Positions 11,270-16,664 of a stretch of DNA of 64,000 nucleotides are shown here, piece after piece (the first letter of the stretch is position 1; each line of letters begins with the position of its first letter). This stretch comes from Metarhizium brunneum (taxonomy: Eukaryota; Ascomycota; Sordariomycetes; Hypocreales; Clavicipitaceae). The notes beneath the pieces were generated by a model that saw only the letters and a program-made list of their open reading frames with translations, made no database searches and was not told the origin of the DNA. A program made the position numbers and the translations under genes. The stretch is taken from assembly GCF_013426205.1 (NCBI RefSeq), contig NC_089423.1, positions 2,728,001 through 2,792,000 on the forward strand. Reading direction: 5' to 3'.

Positions 11270-13893
11270 TTATTCCAATAAGCCGGCAGCAATGGTTTCC
11301 CCACCGCTGCGAAGCACAACTCTCTGGCCCTTTTCCAACGGAACCTTGGAACCAAGCTTAATCGTCACGCGAGCCACACTGCCCGGCTGGACCACCTTGG
11401 GCTTCTTCTTAATGACCTCACCAGTAGCCTTATCAAGGGTTGCGGGTATTGACTGTATTTGTCCAGCTGCATGTAGACGGCCACGGTGGAGGTCAACGGG
11501 CATCGGCATTAGATGCTCGAACGCCATGACCTTCAGAGTGAACGTGTCGCCAACACTGATCGGGTTGACGGTACCGCATAAGATATCGCCAACACGTATG
11601 TGGACGGGATCAATATCAGTCAAGGCAATCGTAACACTCTGACCAGCAACTGCCCATTCTTGAGCCTCCGTGTCCACCATGATGGATTTGATATATGTAC
11701 CCTCGCCGCTGGGCTGCACGATAACTGCATCACCAATCTGAATATTCCCTGCTTCAATGCGGCCAGCAAGCGTTGTTGTGCCCTGTTGTTGGGATCGAAA
11801 CACTTCTGAAATCGACATTCGGAAGGGTTTCGTGATGGCACGGGCCGATGAAGGCTCTGAATCCTCCAATGATGCAAGAAGAGTTGGGCCCTGATACCAT
11901 GCTGCAGTTGCATCCTTTATCTTACTGGCGATATTGTCTCCATTCAGACCTGAAATTGGTATAAAGCTTACCAACTTGCTTTGGAAGCCTAGGCCTGTGA
12001 GAAACCCCATGACTTGTTGAGAAATCTCGTCGAATCGATCTTTTGACCAACCAACCATGTCAAGTTTATTGACAGCGACAATCAGGCGCTGCACACCCAG
12101 ACTGCGCAGCAATAATACGTGCTCTCTCGTTTGCCCCTTGAGGCCTTTTTCGTAAGCCCCAGTATTTGCGTCAACCACGAGAACGGCAAAATCTGCCTGG
12201 CTAGCACCAGCAATCATATTTGGGACGAAATCTCTATGGCCAGGGGCGTCCAAGATGGTGAACTTGGTGTTCGGGGTTTCGAAATGATTGGTGGCGATGT
12301 CGATTGTGACGCCACGTTCCCTTTCTTCCGTTCTCTGGTCCATGACCCAAGCAAGAGCAAAAGATTGTTTTCCTGTCTTCTCTGCTTGTCGACGATACTT
12401 ATCTACCGTGCGCTCTTGAACATATTTCAGTTCAAGCAGAAGGCGACCCATTAGCGTACTTTTGCCGGCATCAACGTGTCCTATTTACATGTTAGCATAG
12501 ATGACAGGGGCAAGCCAGTCATCTTCTTTTGTAACTTACCAACGACAACAAAACTGATGCTCTTTTTTCTATTGCTCTTCTCGTACTCTTTGGCCACATC
12601 AAGACCTTTGCTCTTTGGGGGCGGAGCGTCGCTGACCCTCAGATTCGAAACGCCATTTGCCACATCTACAACTTTAGATACGGCATCGACGTTCTTGTCT
12701 TTTTTCACTACTATCGATGCCGCTTTGACAGGAGCTGCAGTCTTCTTCCCGGCTGAAGAAACATTAGAATTAGCTTGTTATTTCGCCTTTGCGAAGTTCG
12801 AACCTTTTGCCTGCGCGGCCAGAACGATATCGTCCGGGCTGGGATTAGAGAATGCTGTAGCAAGGAAGGATGATGAAGCTGCGTATGGCATTGCAAAGAA
12901 ATCAGGCCTGTTTGCTTGGCGATCTTCTGGAGCGGGACCGAACAAAGTCTTGGCGAAGGCGGATGGTGCACATGCAGGAGCTGGCTCTGCATCTTCTTCT
13001 TGCTCTTCCCTTTGTACTGGAGGGTATTGATTCGGTTTACCCGATTCTTTCTGGGGAGCTATGACTTCGACAGGAGCAGCACTGGAGTGTGTATTTTGAG
13101 AAGATTCACTCCGTGAGTCGCCTCTGCCTAATATTGGACGCGATGAAGGCTGCATATCGGGGCCACGCAGCCGCTTTGCGGGGCTTGAAGCTCCTTTGGT
13201 GTTGCCTTTCTGAGAGTCATCGGTGATCGACAATCTCTTCAAGCCACTTTCTGTCTCTGAAGATTTTGCTTGCTCTTTCTTTTCGTCGTTCTTCTTTTTC
13301 CTAGCGGCCGCAAGTGCTTGCAACTTGGACATTTTCGGGGCATCTCCGGCTCCGCCAAGCAATCCGCCTCGTGGCTCAAAGGGTGCTATCAGAGTAGCTT
13401 GGCGACTCTCGGGCGTGTTCAACCAAGGCATATCATCGAACTCTGATTGAAGAATAATCGAATTTGTTCTGTAGCTGAAAGTCCTACAAGGCGGTAGAGG
13501 TAGTGTTTCAGGTGTTTGTGGCGAGTTGGACAATGGTAAAGCGCTCGCCGCTCCAGCAGATCTTACAAACAGGCCGAGTGATGATGAAAACGAGAACTCA
13601 TGCAACTTACTCTCTGGGGCCTTTTTCGGTGTGGGTTTAGGCGGTGGTGGTGCAATAAAAGTCTTGGTTAAGTAGCTGGCAGACTTCTCTACATCGAAGT
13701 AGTAGTGCCATAGCGCCTCCTGTATCTGCTTGACTGTCACTTTGCTGGCATTGGCACCAAGGGCCTTTTTCACATCGGCAGTGCCCTCCTCCATAGCTTG
13801 CTTGTCCTCAGGGCTCAGCTCTTCCTCCTGATCTTCCTCATAGTCGTTCCCATCATATAGGTCATCGTCGTCGTAGAAGTCAGCGGGTGCCAT
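11270..13893 (-). CDS. HBS1: Hbs1-type translational GTPase (ribosome rescue; possible HBS1/SKI7 dual gene)
   Basis: Hbs1 acts with Dom34/Pelota to split stalled ribosomes in no-go and non-stop decay. Exons 13893-12804 (or 13893-13611 plus 13442-12804), 12752-12540 and 12480-11270 give 837 residues unspliced at the optional intron, or 781 when it is removed. The acidic N-terminus leads into an Hbs1 N-terminal helical domain (about residues 45-90), then a disordered linker with the conserved block GGLLGGAGDAPKMSKLQAL. The EF-Tu-like GTPase core shows GHVDAGKST, ERGVTIDIA, DAPGH and NKLD, followed by domains II and III ending in GETIAAGLLE. The ATG at 13893 was taken rather than an upstream in-frame TTG. 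The intron splitting the P-loop glycine (59 nt, GTAAGT) is clear. The 51-nt intron at 12803-12753 has an atypical GTTCGA donor but restores frame. Confidence 0.93.
13443..13610 (-). other. Optional in-frame intron/cassette in HBS1 (SKI7-like region candidate)
   Basis: A perfect GTAAGT donor (13610) and a CAG acceptor (13443) bracket exactly 168 nt, a multiple of three with no stop in the reading frame, so both retained and spliced messages encode full-length proteins. The retained peptide (56 residues) is Ser/Phe/Leu-rich, beginning KLHEFSFSSSLGLFVRSAG, unlike the flanking linker. Splicing joins PKKAPE to FDDMPWL. Confidence 0.6.
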
Positions 13894-14756: not shown

Positions 14757-16664
14757 ATGTCACTGAGTGAGTGCAACTAGTTGTGGCAATCCAGGGGGGT
14801 TTGATAATGACTGAAGCTAACTTGAACTTGGCAGACCTGGATCCTAACAATGGTAATTGCACCATAATGAATCCTCGGGAAACGGGCTTGAGCGCTAACT
14901 CATACATCTTCGAATAAACAGCAACCTTTTTGAAGGATGAGCAAGGCCGGCCGTTTATTGTGGTCAGAGAGTAAGTACATGCCCCGCCATTCGCGTTCAG
15001 TTCGAACAACGTCTGACAACCACACAGTCAGGGAAGGAAGAAGCGTCAATTCGGAAACGAAGCCGTAAAGTCTCATATACTCGCAGCTAGGACCGTTGCA
15101 AATCTCGTCAAGTCCTCCCTTGGCCCTCGAGGTCTCGACAAGATTCTCATCTCCCCTGACGGAGACATCACAGTCACCAACGATGGCGCCACCATCCTAC
15201 AGCAGATGGAAATCAGCAACCACATTGCCAAGCTGCTGGTAGAGCTGTCCAAATCCCAAGATGACGAAATCGGCGACGGTACCACCGGTGTTGTTGTCCT
15301 GGCTGGTGCTCTGCTGGAGCAAGCTGCCGACCTTATTGATAAGGGCATCCACCCTATCCGAATCGCCGATGGTTACGACCAAGCTTGCGACATCGCCGTT
15401 GCCGAGCTGGACCGAATCTCAGACACGATCGATTTCACAAAGACAGAGACTGCTAACCTGGTCAAGGTTGCACGAACAAGTTTGGGCAGCAAGATTGTCT
15501 CCAAAGCGCATGATCAATTCGCCAACATTGCGGTGGACGCTGTCTTGTCAGTGGCAGATCTGGAGCGAAAGGATGTCGATTTCGAGCTGATCAAGGTTGA
15601 CGGCAAGGTTGGAGGCTCGCTCGAGGACACGCTGCTCGTCAAGGGTGTCATTGTCGACAAGGACTTTTCTCACCCACAAATGCCTTCTGAAGTGCGAGAC
15701 GCCAAGATTGCCATCCTGACTTGTGCCTTTGAACCCCCCAAGCCCAAGACGAAGCACAAGCTCGAGATTACCAGTGTTGAAGAGTTCAAGAAACTGCAAA
15801 ACTACGAGAGGGAGAAGTTTATCGAGATGATCCAGCAGGTCAAGGACACGGGCGCCAATTTGGCAATTTGTCAGTGGGGCTTCGATGATGAAGCCAACCA
15901 CTTGCTTCTCCAGAACGGTCTTCCAGCCGTTCGTTGGGTTGGTGGCCCCGAGATTGAGCTGATTGCCATTGCCACGAACGGCAGAATAGTACCGCGGTTC
16001 GAAGACCTCAAGCCAGAGAAGCTGGGTTCGGCAGGTGTTGTCAGAGAGATGACTTTTGGCACAACAAGAGAGAAGATGCTGGTCATTGAGGAGTGCGCCA
16101 ACACTCGTGCCGTGACTGTTTTCTGCCGTGGCAGTAACAAGATGGTATGTGTGCCCGTCACACCCTGTCCAATGGACTATGGATTGCTGACACATTGTCT
16201 AGATTATCGATGAAGCGAAGCGATCACTTCACGATGCTTTGTGCGTGGTAAGAAACTTGGTTCGCGACAATCGTGTCGTCTACGGTGGCGGTGCTGCCGA
16301 GATTGCCTGCTCCCTGGCTGTCGAGGACGCCGCCGTCAAGACGCCTGGTTTAGAACAGTACGCCATGCGTGCGTTCTCTGAAGCTCTGGATACCGTCCCT
16401 ATGACGCTGGCTGAGAACAGTGGTCTCAACCCCATTTCTACTCTTGCTGAAGTCAAGAGTCAGCAGGTCAAGGCTGGGCCCGACAACCGAGGTAAACTTG
16501 GTGTGGACTGCATGGGACGTGGCAACAACGATATGAAGGAAGCGTTTGTCATTGACCCCTTGATTGGAAAGAAGCAGCAGCTTCAGCTGGCCACGCAATT
16601 ATGTCGCATGGTTCTGAAGGTGAACAACGTCATTGTTTCAGGCTCGGGCGACGAGGAGTTTTAG
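14757..16664 (+). CDS. cct5: T-complex chaperonin (TRiC/CCT) epsilon subunit
   Basis: Subunit of the cytosolic eight-member chaperonin ring that folds actin, tubulin and WD40 proteins. Five exons, 14757-14766, 14835-14852, 14922-14970, 15028-16144 and 16203-16664, encode 551 residues. The first three exons are tiny (10, 18 and 49 nt), which makes the 5' end easy to misannotate; each junction restores the expected N-terminus ([20 protein letters not shown]). Group II chaperonin signatures are present: [16 protein letters not shown], the ATPase loop GDGTT (108-112), and, after the fourth intron, [10 protein letters not shown]. The epsilon assignment rests on [19 protein letters not shown] and the conserved C-terminal half. 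An apparent GTAAGA donor inside that block was not used because the encoded residues are conserved. Confidence 0.96.

Follow-up and report, generated by a model that had tools for sequence, protein, structure and literature searches.

A very probable dual HBS1/SKI7 gene in Metarhizium brunneum, with a largely conserved stop codon ahead of its GTPase exon

Described HBS1/SKI7 genes and the Metarhizium locus

Dual genes for Hbs1 and SKI7 are already known in fungi, Pezizomycotina included. We analysed a locus of this kind on the minus strand of a 64,000-nucleotide (nt) stretch of Metarhizium brunneum DNA (contig NC_089423.1, positions 2,728,001 to 2,792,000), hereafter called the window, whose coordinates are used throughout. 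A preliminary description of its sequence had suggested a dual gene and had placed the alternatively spliced cassette in an optional, in-frame intron of 168 nt (13443..13610). Our analyses indicate that the locus very probably makes two mRNA-surveillance proteins, and that the switch between them appears to be a long, 858-nt intron (12753..13610), not the 168-nt stretch.

The best described fungal counterparts are those of Aspergillus nidulans and Lachancea kluyveri, as presented by Marshall 2013 (PMC3597508). In that account, as in the window, a single gene encodes a shared N-terminal domain, the SKI7 motifs are found in an alternatively spliced linker, and Hbs1 is the shorter product. Alternative 3' splice sites of the second intron are reported for A. 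nidulans, and for L. kluyveri a pair of proteins, 70 and 96 kDa in size, that carried a tag at their common C-terminus. Unlike in those genes as described there, the Hbs1 junction of relatives of the M. brunneum gene also skips the so-called Patch-4 motif, and the unspliced frame has a conserved stop codon before the GTPase. The same article dates fungal SKI7/HBS1 alternative splicing to at least 500 million years and discusses truncated variants of Ski7 in both basidiomycetes and animals. For Cryptococcus and Ustilago, it proposes a truncated Ski7 without GTPase, an annotated intron that is perhaps not a true one, and an Hbs1 obtained by skipping, all of which have parallels in the window; one or two exons are skipped in these basidiomycetes, compared with one 858-nt intron here.

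Patches of SKI7 occupy sites at RRP43-MTR3 and CSL4 in the human complex, and C-terminal residues 617-632 form a conserved helix just past the CSL4 patch that contacts SKI2 (PMC11540850). Vertebrate SKI7 is described as devoid of a GTPase (PMC7924785, PMC6143672), and the GTPase-like domain of yeast Ski7 is reported to be dispensable (PMC6143672). Similar to the frame in the window, the vertebrate protein, an isoform of HBS1L (HBS1LV3), harbours an HBS1_N/UBA-like domain, a PSxFAxxL motif and an SPDDIV patch, ends shortly after the latter and lacks the GTPase. It uses a dedicated exon, whereas retention of a long intron would be the alternative predicted from sequence in M. brunneum. In plants, as in the window, retention of the intron following the cassette is described to introduce stop codons (Brunkard and Baker 2018, PMC6143672); however, plant SKI7 retains its GTPase and the retained intron is considered unproductive in that study, whereas the tail that is read into in the window is conserved.

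A SKI7-like frame within a long intron

The first exon of the gene (13611..13893) carries the start codon, an acidic stretch and the UBA-like HBS1_N domain (PF08938, E 3e-27), and it is common to all proposed isoforms. A single stop-free frame of 371 codons (12778..13893) runs from the ATG at 13893 to the TAA at 12780-12778, ending after ...PSPDDIVLAAQAKGSNFAKAK. HBS1_N corresponds to residues 10-84 of this open reading frame (ORF), and the stretch ...LAAQAKGSNFAK belongs to the 371-residue, SKI7-like form. The translational GTPase exon (11270..12480), with domains 1-3 of the EF-Tu family (PF00009, E 7e-51; PF03144; PF03143), sits beyond the TAA. Both motifs that define SKI7 are encoded ~640-805 nt downstream of the GTAAGT donor (13605..13610), which supports the prediction of a SKI7-like protein. 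The SKI7-like motif (PSxFAxxL / RxxxFxxxL) is present as PSAFAKTLF, is conserved in relatives and could be profile-aligned, as PSAFAKTLFG (12937..12966), to human ARPSAFASTLC (7.2 bits). The Patch-4-like motif (PF.F...SPDDIV) reads AFSNPSPDDIVLAAQ; its longer form PSPDDIVLAAQAK (12805..12843) was profile-aligned to human FKSASPDDIVKANQKK (7.6 bits) and yeast FNRPSPDDIIQSAQ.

The relationship with Ski7 is supported by structure database searches. With a profile of 12 fungal sequences of the SKI7-motif region (12 of 16 stretches; profile A2), all five PDB matches up to E 10 are Ski7 chains. They include 9g8m, named 'Isoform 2 of HBS1-like protein', which we take to be human SKI7 (two weak stretches giving E 0.029), and the yeast Ski7 chains of 8qca, 5jea, 8qcf and 5g06 (E 0.11-0.48). 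These E-values are individually weak, and the argument is that all five matches are Ski7. PDB searches with the N-terminal stretch or with a whole-ORF profile returned only a chain of 3mca, matched in the N-domain. The 37.8-Mb assembly (7 contigs) yielded a single match to PF08938 and a single match to the 371-residue sequence, and no second SKI7 gene was seen in it with these two queries. The suggestion of a dual gene is thus supported by the single copy, the two motifs and the profile matches.

To what extent this frame and its end are shared was assessed on the best 120 of 591 matches obtained with 16 SKI7-like ORFs, which gave 119 ORFs shorter than 500 residues besides that of the window. 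Fifteen of these 119 had themselves been part of the query profile; most carry no species designation, and the labels 'Hypocreales-like' and 'Sordariales-like' were inferred from sequence. Among the matches listed, 119 ORFs harbour PSPD (window included; P0200, with SSPDD, excluded), and 111 of them stop after the 21st (83 ORFs) or 22nd (28 ORFs) residue counted from the P of that motif, that is, shortly past the Patch-4 motif as in vertebrates. The other eight stop after 18 (one), 20 (one), 23 (four) or 24 residues (two). The tail is GSNFAKAK followed by TAA in the window (12778..12804); the larger group has tails of a GSxF(A/T/S/G)(K/R)xK-like type, and the other group GSLLGKGKR-like ones. 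The tail's identity to the window's sequence, the measure used throughout, is 0.66 over the 119 ORFs and 0.75 over the 83 GSxF ORFs; the corresponding values over the 119 ORFs are 0.80 for Patch-4, 0.65 for HBS1_N, 0.60 for the SKI7-like motif and 0.18 for a loose linker. Tail and stop position thus appear largely conserved, about like protein domains, in a place that belongs to a predicted 51-nt intron (intron 2, 12753..12803). Two named gene models are truncated as well, that of Trichoderma gamsii (P0135), terminating in GSNFAKAK, and that of Purpureocillium (P0244), whose tail differs and extends three residues further. The SKI7 product may accordingly resemble that of vertebrates in lacking the GTPase. 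The more interesting feature of the locus is this stop, conserved and located 665 nt downstream from the 168-nt segment.

Relatives' proteins occur both with and without the SKI7 motifs. We took the best 120 of 495 matches of a search for long proteins, and a search for further relatives (best 120 of 287 matches) added 30 new proteins. Among the matches listed are 134 proteins with 500 residues or more, of which 123 carry the motif [PS]SPD and 11 lack it; 10 of these 11 also lack DIVLAAQ, the exception, P0133, retaining DDIVLAAQAK. In these ten short proteins, exon 1 directly joins the linker exon (GKKTAAP..., 12540..12752 in the window), with junctions such as ...KKAPE|AGKK... and ...TPPD|TGKK..., in general ...(E/D)|(A/T)GK, which correspond to a donor equivalent to 13610 and an acceptor equivalent to 12753. 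Three of the ten (P0121, P0127 and P0132) are complete ORFs of 567-570 residues on intronless contigs of 2082, 2103 and 2086 nt, respectively. Since the gene in the window has introns of 858 and 59 nt within that coding region, these contigs are almost certainly cDNA assemblies. The remaining seven are annotated gene models.

Splicing of 13610-12753 and of 12539-12481 in the window yields a 568-residue Hbs1 that is 83% identical to P0121 end to end (1-568 to 1-567) and aligns with all ten short proteins from residue 1-27 to 568, at 70-83% identity. HBS1_N, the EF-Tu-like GTPase (PF00009/PF03144/PF03143) and the G motifs GHVDAGKST, DAPGH and NKLD are intact in it. The acceptor at 12753 keeps the phase and is accompanied by two CTAAT, 11 and 17 nt away, and by a tract rich in pyrimidines. 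Among the [C/T/A]AG sites examined, a CTRAY-type match within 30 nt is confined to 12879, 12753 and the two neighbours downstream of the latter, 12745 and 12742. These features support 13610 as an alternative donor of the HBS1/SKI7 gene; the Hbs1 form would drop 858 nt, including both SKI7 motifs. We also considered TACGCAG at 12879 (in frame, CTGAT 23 nt upstream) as a distal Hbs1 acceptor of the Aspergillus type. It was dropped because, as judged by reading without a count, relatives mostly have Y-A-S, Y-T-S or Y-T-Q there and no conserved phase-1 AG, and because the ten short forms join at AGK/TGK.

We therefore favour, with a probability of roughly 0.6, a reading in which the 858-nt intron is the switch between Hbs1 and a SKI7 ending at the conserved stop. 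Joining donor 13610 to acceptor 12753 would remove the intron and give an mRNA for Hbs1 (HBS1_N and GTPase, 568 residues), the ribosome-rescue partner of Dom34, and keeping it would give the 371-codon SKI7-like protein without GTPase. If the 51-nt intron 12803-12753 were removed instead, SKI7 would be fused to the GTPase, and both routes are possible. The 168-nt segment would then be the opening part of the SKI7-side sequence, sometimes removed and sometimes not. A model with three isoforms, namely a GTPase-less SKI7 of 371 residues, an Hbs1 of 568 and a SKI7-GTPase fusion of ~780-840, fits all findings; that they are expressed and functional in M. brunneum is what we infer from these features. 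We see about an even chance that, in Hypocreales- and Sordariales-like fungi generally, a GTPase-less SKI7 arises because the long intron is kept as a coding module equipped with a conserved C-terminus and a stop of its own, and that many 780-840-residue 'Hbs1' models are composites matching no major isoform. The HBS1 gene models of many Hypocreales would then mix two isoforms.

Should the conserved stop be used, filamentous ascomycetes would share the animal-type, GTPase-less SKI7, which would bear on the ancestral form and on the reason for the GTPase-like domain of yeast Ski7. The gene could also offer a simple system for studying how ribosome rescue and exosome recruitment are balanced through retention of a long intron. 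The conserved GTPase-less frame may be new: we found no account of it for Sordariomycetes in a literature survey based mainly on titles and the openings of abstracts, with Marshall 2018 (PNAS) outside its scope. The latter work reportedly sorts the Ski7-like proteins of eukaryotes into four kinds, and a truncated form from filamentous ascomycetes may already be described in it.

Other readings of the locus

Several observations weigh against the switch by the 858-nt intron. In A. nidulans, the mechanism described is not retention of a whole intron (Marshall 2013, PMC3597508). The set of short ORFs is biased, as it admits only uninterrupted ones, and three gene models (P0122, P0133 and P0148) skip only part of the SKI7 region. 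Moreover, among the matches listed, 121 of the 123 long motif-bearing models leave the frame at the same residue before the stop (A in 120 and V in one; P0113 and P0116 differ). This implies a nearly fixed GT at the glycine codon concerned, for which chance codon choice is an unlikely explanation; gene finders that need a donor at that codon may favour the shared exit residue. Because this GT, at the donor of intron 2, is nearly fixed, the SKI7-GTPase fusion is probably real too and is perhaps the predominant form. Intron 2 itself is probably real in many species, despite the poor-looking donor GTTCGA of the window (acceptor TTTCTTCAG, with two CTAAT); its removal leads to the fusion and its retention to the stop at 12778. 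When it is retained, the 59-nt intron 3 (12481..12539; GTAAGT ... GCTAAC ... TAG) lies ~240 nt downstream of the stop, and such an mRNA could therefore be a target of nonsense-mediated decay (NMD).

An arrangement as reported for A. nidulans is a possible, if doubtful, alternative. SKI7 would then be a long protein with the GTPase, using the proximal 3' splice site, and Hbs1 would use the distal one; intron 2 would normally be removed, and the 168 nt, or part of them, would be a true intron. The shared exit residue is in line with it, and so is the codon usage of the 168-nt segment, which is not coding-like: it ranks at the 1.3 percentile among 153 coding windows and at the 39.7 percentile among 184 off-frame stop-free windows (38 ORFs, half of them for training, with held-out ORFs as control). 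Its flanks are low too (22-23 percentile), and exon 1 is high (90). Between the anchors on either side, 50 of 120 long models have fewer than 40 residues, several of them by modelled splicing, and 70 have at least 40. An in-phase AG at the equivalent of 13443, judged from residues rather than codons, is possible in 16 of the 119 relatives' ORFs and in 9 of 10 hand-picked, close Clavicipitaceae-like proteins (P0001-P0005, P0123, P0128, P0138 and P0140; not P0126), in front of the equivalent of FDDMPW, and the T. atroviride model P0029 is spliced immediately before the equivalent FFDDMPW. In addition, GA[DEG] is found within segment residues 13-30 in 50 of the 83 GSxF ORFs (shuffled mean 1.7, maximum 5), as the conserved GCAG acceptor of a normal short intron would give, and several Fusarium models splice at this place (PE|DHGRL).

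Against this arrangement, the place of GA[DEG] in the window reads GGAGCGGCG, with neither CAG nor TAG, and the acceptor 13443 has no match to CTRAY or YTNAY in the 60 nt upstream. In view of GGAGCGGCG, a short proximal intron may be spliced in relatives and have been lost or weakened in M. brunneum. The tail and stop within intron 2 are conserved about like protein domains. The fused form is seen in annotated models only, since raw-contig sources (jgi, ena and lgn, the last presumably standing for assemblies of public reads) contribute none of the best 120 of 495 long matches; this is absence of evidence.

We consider it unlikely that the conserved stop belongs to a poison event, in which keeping either the long intron or intron 2 would lower SKI7 through NMD and no GTPase-less protein would accumulate. 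The position of intron 3 past the stop would suit such an event, as would the precedent of plants, where an intron after the cassette is retained and such down-regulation has been proposed for retained introns of Arabidopsis and rice (PMC6143672). However, a stop suffices for NMD; a conserved 8-residue tail with K/R largely in register would not be needed.

An HBS1/SKI7 cassette consisting of the 168-nt optional intron itself is most improbable: the segment carries neither SKI7 motif, both of which (12966-12937 and 12843-12805) lie outside 13610-13443 and stay in either version, and relatives' short Hbs1 forms leave out much more than that segment, namely the equivalent of 858 nt. The features on which the proposal was built do exist on the minus strand, namely GTAAGT at 13610, a CAG ending at 13443 (13443..13445), 168 nt in between without in-frame stop, and a preserved phase, and the segment lies between HBS1_N and the GTPase exon as described. 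The donor is backed by the junctions of relatives, whereas the acceptor is doubtful overall, yet may be conserved within Clavicipitaceae. The open frame is nothing special, because the segment lies inside the uninterrupted 371-codon ORF. Nor would both isoforms be full length, as the preliminary description had it: the in-frame TAA, which that description does not mention, ends either version, so that neither reaches the GTPase unless the intron 12803-12753 is removed as well. The segment is read through in the annotated 837-residue models of M. acridum, M. album and M. rileyi. Conservation of its peptide, which had been put forward as a check, is found in the first part and not in the rest. 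Residues 95-115 (SKLHEFSFSSSLGLFVRSAGA) are 0.80 identical in six hand-picked close ORFs, equal to HBS1_N there, and 0.27 over the 119 ORFs. Residues 116-150, the last two thirds, are at 0.25 in the six close ORFs and at 0.08 over the 119 (0.08-0.09 over the 119 and the 83 GSxF ORFs, versus 0.66-0.75 for the tail), and residues 101-150 are predicted to be disordered (AlphaFold pLDDT blocks of 37-45).

Further observations on the segment and the locus

The first 21 codons past the donor (13548-13610, minus strand), with the pattern FSFSxxLGLFVR, are conserved like HBS1_N in the six close ORFs; a peptide, a splicing element or both may be what is maintained. In 16 of the 36 non-GSxF ORFs (P0218-P0252), the read-through peptide contains (L/V)(T/D)..Q(G/A), 11 times as SLTxxQG, a count made without shuffled control. 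CTGAC...CAGG, that is, a branch point and an acceptor in frame, would encode a pattern of this type, a hint that Sordariales-like fungi have a genuine intron in this proximal position.

The closest annotated protein among the matches listed is that of M. acridum, which shares 90% identity across 75% of the scored region, followed by those of M. album and M. rileyi. The AlphaFold model of the 371-residue form is poor overall (mean pLDDT 53.4), with a confident N-domain and a disordered 168-nt segment. For exon 1, helices are predicted at residues 28-51, 54-63 and 68-80, blocks 31-80 being at pLDDT 87-91. One fungal HBS1/SKI7 fragment (P0233) is filed under a Thaumarchaeota metagenome-assembled genome, evidently through contamination.

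A search of the window against Rfam gave no matches at gathering scores. About 1 kb upstream of the start of the HBS1/SKI7 gene, and divergent from it, we identified a TCP-1/cpn60 chaperonin (CCT subunit) gene on the plus strand (15017-16664), based on a PF00118 match (E 3e-114) of the ORF 15017-16213.

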